Positions 1,707 through 6,909 of a DNA stretch of 64,000 bases are shown here, piece after piece. Numbering within the stretch: the stretch's first letter is position 1; every line of letters begins with the position of its first letter. The notes under the pieces are model-generated. The model searched no databases. It worked only from the letters and a program-made list of their open reading frames with translations, and was not told where the DNA came from. Location of the stretch: the NCBI GenBank assembly GCA_012512265.1, contig JAAZEM010000079.1, positions 1 to 64,000 of the forward strand, given 5' to 3'. Made by a program: the position numbers and the translations under genes. This DNA is from Armatimonadota bacterium. GTDB taxonomy: Bacteria > Armatimonadota > JAAZEB01.

Positions 1707-1944
1707 CTGGGATTCTGACGTAAGGAATCCGAAGCCACGGAGGCAGCGCGCAACCCAGCGCGCGGCGATAAACCACCGCGCTGCTTGCGAGCGAAGCCCT
1801 GCCGGGCTGGGCCGGGGATACTCCCAGATATCTCAAAACGGCGATGGCTGGGAGGGGGAGCTCCGCAGGGGCTTTGCCGGAAAGTAGCGCGGAGCTTCGA
1901 GCTCCGCGCGTGTGGGCGGCCTTCTCCTCATGTCGGAATCCCAG
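1707..1944 (+). mobile_element. MITE-like 238-bp inverted-repeat element, copy A
   Basis: The element runs from CTGGG to CCCAG. Its first and last 20 bp form an imperfect terminal inverted repeat (17 of 20 match). It aligns over its whole length, without indels, with the reverse complement of 34663-34900; hand alignment gives about 30 mismatches (roughly 87% identity). Inside lies a perfect 10-bp hairpin at 1887-1909 with a TCG loop. Only a 5-bp direct repeat (GCGCG, 1702-1706 and 1945-1949) flanks it, so this looks like an older insertion than copy B. It encodes no convincing protein and no transposase. Together with the tyrS promoter it fills most of the gap before the heparinase-like gene. 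Confidence 0.8.
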
Positions 1945-2128
1945 GCGCGGGTCTCGCAGGGGCCATGCCCCGATCCCGGAAGGATCGTGCGGCCCGACAG
2001 GCTGCACCCGGACCATTTGGGGCCGTCCCCTTCATCATGGTATCGATGTCGGCAGGGAACGGGCCTCAAAGGGTTTTTGCCGGTCGCGGCGAATCTCGGG
2101 GGCAAGCACCGGAAAGGAGTGGGCTGTG
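1945..2128. other. gene-free leader of the heparinase-like gene
   Basis: Between element A and the heparinase-like ATG no gene is evident. A weak promoter-like pair (TTGGGG and TATCGA, 18 bp apart, around 2017-2047) is visible, but I do not consider it reliable. The segment ends with the GGAAAGGAG ribosome binding site at 2111-2119. Confidence 0.4.
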
Positions 2129-4730
2129 ATGCTGCGACGGATCCTCATCTCATTGGCGCTCTTCTTCTGTCCCCTGTTGTGGAGTGGTCTGGCGGCGGGG
2201 CAGGCTGTGCCGCCGCTCGTGCTCTCCTCGTGCGATGACCCGGCGGAGTGGAGCGGGGGAACCGCGGATACCGGGCACGTGAAACAGGGGAAGGCCTCAC
2301 TGCGTTGGGAGCATGCGAAGGCGGATGGCATCTCCCTCGCCAAGGTGCCTGCGGATTGGTCGGCCTACGACCGGCTCTCGTTCTGGGTCTACTCGGAGAA
2401 AGCGACCAATTCCAGCTTCATGCTCATCATCAGTTCCGAGAACCCCGAAACGGAGGGCCCCGATTACTACTCGCGAAGCATCCGCCTCAACTTCACTGGC
2501 TGGAAGCGCTTCCGCTGCTACCTGCAGCAGATGAGCGCGGCTCGCCAGCCGCTCGGGTGGAATCAGATCCACGGGTTGCGCTTCACCGCCTCTGGGTGGG
2601 GGAATGAGCCGCACCCCGAGGCCGTCGTCTGCATCGACGACGTTATCCTGACGCATGAGGGGAAGGAGGTAGGGCCCCGCATGACCGATGAACAGCTTTT
2701 CGAGGCCCTGAACCTGGAGTATCCGGGGTTGGGCGAGGTGAAAGCCGCGGTAGCGAAGGGCGACCTGGCAGCGGCGAAGCGCGCCCTGGCGCAGTATTAC
2801 CGCAACCGCCAGACGCCGAAGTGGTACTTCCCAGCCGGAGCGAAGGCCGACCCAAAGCCGGAGAATCCAGATACCGCCCGTGCCGACCGGGTGCTCCGCC
2901 ACGAGTTGGAGAGCATCGGCCTGCGCCACCAGTTCGGGCCGGAGATCGATTGGACGTTCGACCTGACCACAGCGCCCGGATCGAAGTACGCCCCGAACAA
3001 CGAGTGGACCTGGCAGCTCAACCGCCACGCCGATTGGTCTGCTCTGGCTCGGGCCTACCGTGATACGGGCGATGAGCGTTACGCGCGCGAGTTCACGGCG
3101 CAGATGATGCAGTGGGTGCGCACCTGCCCGGTGCCGGAGGACGCCGCCAACACCGCGCGCTCGACCTGGCGCACCATCGAGGCGGGTATCCGCGCTGCGC
3201 AAGTTTGGCCGGATCTCTTCTACCGCTTCCTCCTCTCGCCGGAGTTCACCGACGAGGCGCTGGTGACGATGGTCAAATCGTTCGCCGAGCACGCGATGTA
3301 TCTTCTTCCCCATCCCACCTCCGGCAACTGGCTGTGCATGGAGGGAAACGGCCTCTTTCACGTGGGAGTGCTCTTCCCAGAGTTCAAGGACGCGGCCAAG
3401 TGGCGCGACACGGCGGTGGAGTGGCTCTATGCCGAGATGGAGAACCAGGTGTACCCCGACGGGGTGCAGATCGAGCTCTCCAGCGGCTACCACCACGTCA
3501 GCCTGAGCAACTTCCTGGGCGTGTTCCGCCTTGCCCAACTCAACGACATCGCGCTGCCGGCGGATTACCTGAAGCGGATCGAGCGCATGTACGACTTCGA
3601 CGTCTATGCCGCGATGCCGGACCGCCGCCTCCCCGGCGTGCAGGATGGCGGCTATATGGATATCCGAAGGCCACTGGGTGAGGCCGCCCGACTCTTCCCC
3701 GAGCGCAAGGAGTTTCTCTGGTACGCCACCGATGGCAAGGAGGGAGAGCCGCCCGCGAAAACTTCCTATGCCTTCCCCTACGCCGGCTATTTCATCATGC
3801 GCTCCGGCTGGGAGCCGGATGCCTGCTGGATGCTCTTCGACGGCGGGCCCTTCGGCTATGGCCACCAGCACGAAGACAAGCTGAACGTGATCGTGCATGC
3901 CTACGGCAAGCTGCTCCTCGTGGATCCGGGCAACTACCAGTACGAGAGGTCCAAGTGGCGGCAATACTTCATCGACTCTGCCGCGCACAACGTCGTTCTG
4001 GTGGATGGTCAACCGCAACGCCGGCGCGGCCGCCCGAGATCGGAGTACGTCGTCAAGGAGCCGTTGCCCCATGTGTGGGCCACCGCGCCCGAGTATGATT
4101 ACGTGGAGGCCACCTTCGACGAGGGCTTCGGCGGCGAGGTGAAGCAGGGGGGTGGCGCACACCCGGCGCGTCCTCTTCGTGAAGCCGGATCTGTGGATCC
4201 TTTGCGACACCCTCTCCGCGAAAGACGGCAAGGAGCACTCCTATGAGGCGCTCTTCCACCTCGATGCCCCGGTGAAGGCGGATGCCGCCGGCCTTCGCCT
4301 CTTCACTGGCAACGAGGACGCGGCCAACCTCGCCATCGCCGCCCGGCCTGCCTCCGGGCTCTCATTGAAGATCGTGGAGGGACAGCAGGACCCGTTGCAG
4401 GGCTGGCTGCCCGACCGCGGGCTCAAGAGCGCGCACCCGGCTCCCGTGGCCGTCTTCACCGCGACAGGCGGGGGTGACACGCATCTCCTTTGGGTACTGG
4501 CCCCCGCGCGGCCCGGCGCGCCAGACCCGGTGGCCGCCATTGAACCCCTCGGAGACAACCGATTGTCGGCGCGCATTCGCCTGCGCGATGGGCGGGCGTA
4601 CGAGGTGGCTTTCTCTGGGGGGAGCCCGGCGGATCTGCGGGTCGGCGCAGCGAGAGGCCGTGGGCGCGCCCTCCTGGTCGAGACCCGGCCGGATGGCCAG
4701 CCCGGCCGGACGATCGTCGCAGCGCCCTGA
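2129..4730 (+). pseudogene. exported heparinase II/III-like polysaccharide lyase, frameshifted
   Basis: Predicted extracytoplasmic lyase or uronic-acid-polymer-degrading enzyme. The ATG at 2129 follows a GGAAAGGAG site and begins a signal peptide (to about residue 25). A CBM-like beta domain (about 30-170), an alpha-helical toroid (about 190-540) and the heparinase II/III beta-sheet domain follow. The GYGHQHEDKLN segment near residue 578 carries the family's conserved His. At the G6 run 4147-4152 the frame shifts: the first frame dies at 4246, while the conserved C-terminal part continues in another frame to 4730. Removing one G restores a natural joint (EVKQ-GVAHTRRVLFVKPD) and a product of about 866 residues. 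It is either a real pseudogene or phase variant, or a homopolymer sequencing error. The substrate cannot be told from the sequence. Confidence 0.8.
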
Positions 4731-4913: not shown

Positions 4914-6608
4914 ATGCAAGCGCTGTCCATCGCAGCGGCGGCCCTCCTTGGCTACCTGGCGGGGTCTATCCCATTCGGCTACCTTCTGGTCAAAGCCCTT
5001 CGGGGCATCGATATCCGTGACTACGGCAGCCACAACATCGGGGTTTCGAACGTCGCGCGGGTTGCCGGGAAGGGCACGGCCGTACTCTGTCTGGTGCTCG
5101 ATGCCGGGAAGGGCCTGATCCCCGTTCTGCTTGCCCAGCGCATGGGAGCAGGACCGTGGGGATTGGTGCTCGCGGGCACGGGTGCGTGTGTGGGGCATGC
5201 CTACTCGCTCGTTTTCCTCCTGAAGGAGGGCCGCTTCTCTCGCGGGAAGGCCGTCGCCTCCGGCCTGGGCGCGGTGATCGGCTTCAGCCTCCTTGGGGCG
5301 ATCCCGGCGGGTGTTCTCGGCGCTGTCCTCCTAGTTTGGGCAACATGCCTCGGCCTGTTCCGCTTCATGTCGCTGGCATCGATGGCCGGCGCGGCCGCGT
5401 TCGCCGTCGCTGTGTGGGTCACCCCGGTCGACCTGGCGTATCGCGTGTTTGGCACTGTCATCTTCCTCTTCATCGTCTGGAAGCATAAGGAGAACCTCGG
5501 GCGGTTGATCGACGGCACGGAGGTCCGCGGGGGCGAGAAGGTACCCCTAGCGAACATCGATGGCGATGAGGTGGCGTGTGCCTTCGTGATTCACCCCTTT
5601 GAGATGGCGGATTGCTTTAAGTCGCGCCGATTCCGGCTGCTCGCCGGATGGCTGCCGACCGGGATAACGCGCCGCCTCCTGCGCTACGTGCGCCCGATGA
5701 AGAACGATGTGATCACCGGGATCACCACTCGCGATGGCCGGCGCGCGCGCGTCTATCTCATTGGCGTCCCGCTTCTTGCCGAGCAGATCAAGAAGGATGA
5801 GGCGCTCGCGGTGAAGCGGGCGATCCAGGCCGCCGAGTTGGCGCATCACCTGGGAGCATCGGTGATCGGCCTGGGTGCGTTCATGTCTGTTGTGGGCGAG
5901 AAGGGCGCGGCGGTCCAGCGGCATTCACCGATCCCGGTGACCAATGGAGGCTCGCTCACCGCGGGGAGCGTGCGCCTGGGCCTCCAGGCTCTCACCGAGC
6001 GCCTCTCAGATCAACTGGGGACGTCCACGGTCGCGGTCGTCGGTGCCAATGGCGTGGTGGGCTTCAAGATCTGCCGGGATCTGGCGCCCGCGATGCGCCG
6101 GCTGATTCTTGTGGGCACCAATCTGGAGCGCCTGGAGAGCGGGGCGAAACTCCTTCGGAAGGTGAACCCGCTCCTGGAGATCACCACCTCGGTGAGCTGC
6201 GACGCGCTCGTGGATGCGGACCTCATCTTCTCGGCGACCTCTGACCCGAACGCCGTGATCTTCTCGCGCCACCTCAAGGAGGGCGCGCTCGTCTTTGACC
6301 TGGGCCGGCCGGCCGACGTCGACCCGGCGGTCCTCCGCGAGCGCCCCGATGTCAAGGTGATCCCTGGCGGCACGATCCGCATGCCAGGCGAGCACGTGAA
6401 GTACCACATCGACCTCGGGTTCGGACCGGGCAACATCCCGGCGTGTCTGGCGGAGACGATTATCATCGCCCTGGAACGGGCCTATGACCGGGTGACCCTG
6501 GGGGATGGCACGAGCGCGGAGAACGTGGAGTACTTCGTTCGCAAGGCCGAAGAGCTCGGGTTCGATGTGGTTGCGGAGCCCTATTCCAGGGAGGTGGCCA
6601 CGGCTTGA
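4914..6608 (+). CDS. plsY: PlsY acyltransferase fused to an acyl-ACP-reductase-like domain
   Basis: Residues 1-200 are a membrane acyl-phosphate:glycerol-3-phosphate acyltransferase, first acylation step of phospholipid synthesis. The loops GSIPFGYL (17-24), GSHNIGVSNV (38-47) and GHAYSLVFL (94-102) are present between hydrophobic helices. Residues about 220-564 resemble the cyanobacterial aldehyde-forming acyl-ACP reductase (AAR): LGAFMSVV at 320-327, VTNGGSLTAG at 342-351 and a Rossmann motif VVGANGVVG at 375-383. The usual PlsY is only about 200 residues. At the region matching the AAR catalytic Cys (recalled as Cys294 of the Synechococcus enzyme) I see VKYHIDLGF with no Cys; the nearest is Cys511. 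The second domain may therefore be a dehydrogenase of altered chemistry. The start is fixed by the PlsY N-terminus, and the mRNA appears leaderless. Confidence 0.85.
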   Translation: MQALSIAAAALLGYLAGSIPFGYLLVKALRGIDIRDYGSHNIGVSNVARVAGKGTAVLCLVLDAGKGLIPVLLAQRMGAGPWGLVLAGTGACVGHAYSLVFLLKEGRFSRGKAVASGLGAVIGFSLLGAIPAGVLGAVLLVWATCLGLFRFMSLASMAGAAAFAVAVWVTPVDLAYRVFGTVIFLFIVWKHKENLGRLIDGTEVRGGEKVPLANIDGDEVACAFVIHPFEMADCFKSRRFRLLAGWLPTGITRRLLRYVRPMKNDVITGITTRDGRRARVYLIGVPLLAEQIKKDEALAVKRAIQAAELAHHLGASVIGLGAFMSVVGEKGAAVQRHSPIPVTNGGSLTAGSVRLGLQALTERLSDQLGTSTVAVVGANGVVGFKICRDLAPAMRRLILVGTNLERLESGAKLLRKVNPLLEITTSVSCDALVDADLIFSATSDPNAVIFSRHLKEGALVFDLGRPADVDPAVLRERPDVKVIPGGTIRMPGEHVKYHIDLGFGPGNIPACLAETIIIALERAYDRVTLGDGTSAENVEYFVRKAEELGFDVVAEPYSREVATA

Positions 6609-6724: not shown

Positions 6725-6810
6725 GGGCGAGTGTCGGAACTGGTAGACGGGCATGACTTAGGATCATGTGGACTTTGTCCGTGAGAGTTCGAGTCTCTCC
6801 TCGCCCACCA
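6725..6810 (+). tRNA. tRNA-Leu, anticodon UAG
   Basis: The 86-nt gene folds as a class II tRNA. The acceptor strand GGGCGAG (6725-6731) pairs with CTCGCCC, followed by discriminator A and an encoded CCA. The anticodon stem is CATGA/TCATG around loop CTTAGGA, with anticodon TAG at 6759-6761. A long variable arm (GGAC-TTT-GTCC) and T arm GAGAG-TTCGAGT-CTCTC complete it. It reads CUN leucine codons, chiefly CUA. It is transcribed with tRNA-Gly 24 bp downstream. Confidence 0.97.
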
Positions 6811-6834
6811 GCTGGCGGCGGTGCCATCATCGGT

Positions 6835-6909
6835 GCGGGAGTAGTACAGTGGTAGTACGTCTCCTTGCCAAGGAGAAGGTCGCGGGTTCGAGTCCCGTCT
6901 CCCGCTCCA
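6835..6909 (+). tRNA. tRNA-Gly, anticodon GCC
   Basis: The 75-nt gene has acceptor GCGGGAG (6835-6841) paired with CTCCCGC, then T and an encoded CCA. The anticodon stem CTCCT/AGGAG encloses TGCCA, anticodon GCC at 6867-6869. The T arm is CGGGTTCGAGTCCCG-like. It shares the promoter at 6673-6701 with tRNA-Leu. Confidence 0.97.

Follow-up and report, generated by a model that had tools for sequence, protein, structure and literature searches.

The window, the 64,000-nucleotide stretch of an Armatimonadota contig (JAAZEM010000079.1) that was analysed, carries the plsY-aar fusion gene at 4914..6608 on the forward strand, the frame of which is open from the ATG for 564 codons (564 aa, P0001). Upstream of it, two forward-strand ORFs (1844-4246 and 4152-4730) overlap in different frames; judged by eye, the latter resembles the C-terminal part of the former, possibly reflecting a frameshift in a heparinase/lyase-like gene. 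Downstream, the fusion gene is followed by genes for tRNA-Leu (tag) and tRNA-Gly (gcc) (6725-6909, forward strand) and then by a run of trigger factor, clpP, clpX and lon genes, named by eye.

Domains and active sites of the fusion protein

The protein had been read in the initial annotation as PlsY followed, from about residue 220, by a domain resembling cyanobacterial acyl-ACP reductase (AAR), and both the order of the domains and the boundary were borne out by Pfam, NCBIfam, PDB and AlphaFold/Foldseek matches. PlsY catalyses the committed step of bacterial phospholipid synthesis. The PlsY membrane domain comprises residues 1-205 (4914..5528; this and all the following features of the gene are on the forward strand), of which residues 12-198 match Pfam G3P_acyltransf (PF02660, E = 4.7e-42); the score against the PlsY equivalog model TIGR00023, 132.7 bits, is slightly under the cut-off of 137.2. 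A short linker, residues 206-218 (5529..5567), follows, and DSSP of the predicted model assigns no regular structure to residues 201-218. The AAR / thioester reductase domain begins at about residue 219 and extends to residue 553 (5568..6572), within which residues 266-551 match the N-terminal part of NCBIfam PigE (E = 6.4e-34) and residues 298-531 match the long-chain acyl-ACP reductase model AcACP_reductase (TIGR04058, E = 1.6e-13). The latter score, 50.7 bits, is far under the equivalog cut-off of 449.7, which places the domain outside the cyanobacterial AARs as defined by that model. The best-matching PDB chains by sequence were those of PlsY (5xj5, 9.6e-24), PigE (4ppm, 8.2e-21) and AAR (6jzu, 4.5e-8), and the profile of 70 sequences matched PigE (2.4e-53), AAR (1.3e-47) and PlsY (6.9e-33).

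An AlphaFold2 model of the whole protein, built on the same 70-row alignment, had a pLDDT of 93.0 and a pTM of 0.92, the latter of which suggests that the two predicted domains are packed in a defined way. In a Foldseek search of the model against the PDB, AAR (6jzu) ranked first (E = 1.9e-18, TM-score 0.80 of the target), and PlsY (5xj5) was found as a separate domain match (E = 1.5e-11, target TM-score 0.88); the only other fold ranked between them was an NAD-binding domain of the carmabin pathway. Shikimate dehydrogenase, raised earlier as a possible better identity for the C-terminal part, was rejected: Pfam Shikimate_DH covers the nucleotide-binding part alone (E = 5.1e-7), and no shikimate dehydrogenase was among the top 50 Foldseek matches.

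For the PlsY domain, the alignment with aaPlsY locates the first part of the G3P phosphate clamp, Ser39 (Ser35 in aaPlsY) to Arg49 (Arg45), at 5028..5060, His95 (His92, acyl-phosphate binding) at 5196..5198, Lys112 (Lys104) at 5247..5249, Ser156 (Ser142, which contacts the G3P 2-OH) at 5379..5381, and His191 to Asn194 (His177 and Asn180) at 5484..5495; the roles of the acyl-phosphate-binding histidine and of the G3P-pocket residues (Ser35, Arg45, Lys104, Ser142, His177 and Asn180) have been described for aaPlsY (PMC5700162). All six pocket residues are kept in the window protein, and the pocket is also complete in five relatives of it, likewise fused Armatimonadota proteins. Whereas the whole domain is shared with 5xj5, canonical PlsY is a stand-alone protein of about 200 aa, and Gly102 and Gly105 are replaced by Arg and Ala, respectively, in the fused Armatimonadota copies. 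Judged by these residues, the PlsY domain in fused Armatimonadota (f1, f6 and f18) is apparently a working enzyme.

For the C-terminal domain, the sequence GANGVVG at residues 377-383 (6042..6062) conforms to the GxxGxxG pattern of a dinucleotide loop and aligns with 162-GATGDIG-168 of SeAAR. Cys511 (6444..6446), the predicted acyl-accepting nucleophile, aligns with the catalytic Cys294 of SeAAR (PMC7089970) and with Cys296 of PigE (PMC8341465), and both this cysteine and the cofactor-loop residues are invariant in the 70-sequence alignment. Since family, fold and residues match, the C-terminal domain is very likely to be a thioester reductase by chemistry.

The likeness to cyanobacterial AAR stands for the fold, the catalytic cysteine and the loop, but in biochemical terms the domain is closest to the thioester-reductase domains of PigE and TamH. 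The window protein and SeAAR are 22% identical in the structural alignment, and the cyanobacterial enzyme is a stand-alone protein paired with ADO, in contrast to the membrane-domain fusion described here. In PigE, which among solved chains gives the best sequence match to the reductase domain, as well as in TamH and KecF, the reductase serves a pathway from acyl thioester to amine; these domains are fused to a transaminase and lie in secondary-metabolite clusters, whereas that of the window protein is fused to PlsY. Formation of alkanes, one of the outcomes first proposed, would have the aldehyde deformylated as in cyanobacteria, where AAR is the first enzyme of the alkane pathway. This is extremely improbable here, as ADO (PF11266) was found in none of the 61 genomes searched, while the Synechococcus control was positive.

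Distribution, phylogeny and the PlsY domain of Deinococcota

Among 291 genomes of Armatimonadota, the phylum of the window itself, the survey of the spread of the fusion found it in six, distributed over three families (G000-G002 in one, G007 and G034 in a second, G021 in a third); it is also present in a named Armatimonadota MAG (L045). In the fusion-bearing Armatimonadota genomes, the fused copy is the sole PlsY match and the sole AAR match, and most of the remaining genomes of the phylum have an AAR-like gene and a PlsY gene apart. A long-frame PlsY of G023 (L222, L242) was rejected as a further fusion, being a stand-alone PlsY in an overlong, GC-rich frame.

In Deinococcota, the phylum of Thermus composti, an AAR-bearing match was present in 107 of 111 genomes, and by a manual count from the table about 95 of the 111 align over both domains; several further matches are clipped at contig ends or start at residues 83-89 in long open frames. 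Named carriers of the fusion include Thermus, Meiothermus, Calidithermus and Trueperaceae, and a Deinobacterium chartae protein matches the AAR model. Six Deinococcota genomes (G292-G297) checked for PF02660 had 3-5 PlsY matches each; as read from these sequences, Deinococcota have separate canonical PlsYs besides the fused copy. Assembly error and chance were rejected as the source of the fusion, since the fusion is a single unbroken frame in six Armatimonadota genomes of three families and recurs, aligned over both domains, in about 95 of the 111 Deinococcota. The architecture, PlsY followed by AAR, is real. No description of it was found in the literature searched, and it is apparently undescribed within that scope, as had been supposed at the outset, but it is widespread and not a peculiarity of one genome.

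Of the 144 AAR domains placed in a tree, the 37 fused ones all fell into a single clade (support 1.0) that held none of the 107 stand-alone AARs. The PlsY tree likewise grouped the fused copies (support 0.98), and one stand-alone PlsY was nested among them with low support. The stand-alone AAR-like proteins of Armatimonadota, Chloroflexota and Bacillota (about 360 aa) belong to the same family and are roughly 29-41% identical to the fused domain, but they are unfused, lie outside the fused clade and often adjoin a gene for a protein of about 300 aa. Those of Armatimonadota are mostly nearest to named Armatimonadetes, Fimbriimonadaceae and Chthonomonas loci.

For the Deinococcota fused copies (n = 30, aaPlsY numbering), the PlsY pocket differs from the canonical one. 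His177 is replaced by Tyr or Phe in 26 of the 30, Ser35 is gone from 28, and Ser142 is gone from most; conversely, the acyl-phosphate-binding His92 is kept in every copy, and Thr41 is replaced by Glu in every copy (e.g., L048:5386-7044). Because His92 and the new Glu are invariant, the pattern, as far as sequence can tell, is that of a conserved new pocket rather than of decay. With the acyl-phosphate site kept and the G3P site lost, the PlsY domain of Deinococcota has probably become an anchor for the reductase or an enzyme for a different acceptor. The PlsY domain of L045 is also degenerate, with Ser35, Ser142 and Asn180 changed, and no second PlsY was found in that MAG.

These observations bear on two further explanations of the fusion. 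One is that the AAR domain binds acyl-ACP and NAD(P)H and tunes PlsY without making a product, for which the choice of partner, the committed enzyme of phospholipid synthesis, would be fitting. It is very unlikely, given the invariance of the catalytic cysteine and the cofactor-loop residues, and in Deinococcota the G3P site of PlsY is degenerate while AAR is conserved, the opposite of what a regulatory domain would predict. The other is that the C-terminal domain reduces acyl-phosphate bound in the PlsY domain or passes acyl groups between ACP and phosphate, with the two active sites making up one channel. The defined packing implied by the pTM, together with the retention of His92, the loss of Ser35 and His177 and the invariant Glu in Deinococcota, is consistent with such channelling, but the relatives of AAR take thioesters, and 58 of 61 genomes, that of the window included, encode PlsX, the standard maker of acyl-phosphate. 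The presence of PlsX implies that acyl-phosphate is made separately from the fusion; AAR was accordingly rejected as a PlsX replacement. We regard channelling as unlikely.

Fate of the predicted aldehyde

The mechanism that we favour starts from the domains, the active-site residues, the distribution and the single clade of fused reductases, as read from sequence or model, and within it we infer what the domains catalyse, the substrate, the transaminase partner and the lipid product. The membrane-embedded N-terminal PlsY domain would acylate glycerol-3-phosphate using acyl-phosphate, and it seems to be the sole PlsY of the window organism. Acyl-ACP (or acyl-CoA) would donate a long acyl chain to Cys511, and a nicotinamide cofactor held at GANGVVG would reduce the bound acyl group to a fatty aldehyde. 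A PLP transaminase of class III would most likely aminate this aldehyde, and the resulting long-chain alkylamine would enter a polar lipid, such as the structurally known N-glyceroyl-alkylamine phosphoglycolipids of Deinococcus-Thermus. The fusion would place aldehyde formation at the membrane, next to the enzyme that commands acyl flow. The suggestion first made for this gene, that it could connect phospholipid synthesis with the making of a fatty aldehyde, is supported, and the whole explanation, with PlsY, reductase and alkylamine combined, seems to us about evenly balanced between right and wrong.

The proposed amine product rests on the relatives of the reductase and on the known lipids of Deinococcus-Thermus. 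For PigE, reduction of a thioester followed by transamination of the resulting aldehyde has been reported (PMC8341465), as it has for TamH; for KecF, it has been proposed. An AAR domain is also part of some proteobacterial plasmid genes annotated as class III aminotransferase, and a gene order of class III aminotransferase, SRPBCC lipid-transport-like protein and AAR was observed in Tumebacillus, Eremiobacterota and unclassified bacteria (L091, L095, L111, L118 and L122), an example being L118:4286-7077 of Tumebacillus avium.

Most of the AAR- or fusion-bearing genomes tested, including that of the window (G000:C76), encode an aminotransferase with 45-56% identity to that of Tumebacillus; the best homologue in G007 is 46% identical, and the best in two Trueperaceae genomes are just 41-42% identical. 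The homologue resembles putrescine aminotransferase and is unlinked to the fusion gene. Because it belongs to a common family, is unlinked and is distant in Trueperaceae, its co-occurrence is weak evidence. No gene neighbourhood conserved across phyla was found around either the fused genes or the close homologues of the aminotransferase.

As for the lipids, in the acidic glycolipid of Thermus thermophilus HB8 an amide bond joins an iso-heptadecyl alkylamine to glyceric acid (PMC3398001). Alkylamine phosphoglycolipids occur in Thermus and Meiothermus, with a related lipid in Deinococcus, and are described as chemical markers that unambiguously identify the Deinococcus-Thermus lineage (PMC3035268); in Oceanithermus, such a lipid was inferred from chromatography (PMC3111992). 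As both the relatives of the reductase and these lipids point to amines, the fusion is a candidate for the aldehyde-forming step in the synthesis of alkylamine phosphoglycolipids. No genes assigned to this biosynthesis were found in the literature, and no lipid data were found there for Armatimonadota, the window organism included. The alkylamine destination of the aldehyde is, in our estimate, roughly as probable as not in Deinococcota, and less probable in the window organism.

The commonest neighbour of stand-alone AAR is not an aminotransferase but the 300-aa gene mentioned above, which belongs to a family with no convincing Pfam or NCBIfam assignment. In about 30 of the 80 named loci it is the gene directly upstream of stand-alone AAR (e.g., L119:5021-5968, forward strand, alignment A3); it recurs in this position in Bacillota and Armatimonadota, and, by manual reading, adjoins stand-alone AAR in about 29 of 61 Armatimonadota genomes. 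The family is present in nearly all fusion-bearing genomes tested, unlinked to the fusion gene (in the window genome at G000:C134:6411-7226). Its AlphaFold model has a pLDDT of 93 and gave weak Rossmann-like or periplasmic-binding-like matches alone, and the protein is a candidate partner of AAR. The 300-aa family may correspond to one labelled quinate 5-dehydrogenase. A family so annotated is listed as conserved in Deinococci and as occurring in Thermus and other bacteria as well (PMC9425974).

Two further observations concern these genes. In 17 Chloroflexota loci (e.g., L087:352-1677), a left-handed beta-helix (hexapeptide) protein is encoded directly upstream of the AAR-like gene. In addition, one Armatimonadota genome (G011, 96% complete) contains the 300-aa family and has no PlsY, AAR or PlsX match, suggesting a different lipid pathway.

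Alternatively, reduction of the aldehyde might yield a fatty alcohol that is used in ether lipids or plasmalogens, with acyl chains shared out by PlsY and AAR between ester and ether lipids. A fatty aldehyde is the product of the AAR family, and a fusion to the enzyme that opens glycerolipid synthesis would fit a branch point at sn-1; however, the conserved neighbours of AAR genes examined included no recognisable ether-lipid enzyme, and we regard this route as unlikely.

Implications for membrane lipid synthesis

Extended to both phyla, the alkylamine proposal states that the fusion performs the first alkylamine step for the N-glyceroyl-alkylamine phosphoglycolipids of the Deinococcus-Thermus lineage, that a similar lipid is made in some Armatimonadota, and that the PlsY domain of Deinococcota has turned from a G3P acyltransferase into a module that binds acyl-phosphate and either uses a new acceptor or serves in channelling. 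In this combined form it is tentative and somewhat doubtful.

Where the sole PlsY match of a genome is fused to an acyl reductase, a branch point at the membrane is implied, from which acyl chains would pass either into glycerolipids or into a fatty-aldehyde product. In Deinococcota, where alkylamine phosphoglycolipids are chemical markers of the phylum, the fusion with its remodelled pocket is a single candidate for their biosynthesis that could be tested by knock-out.
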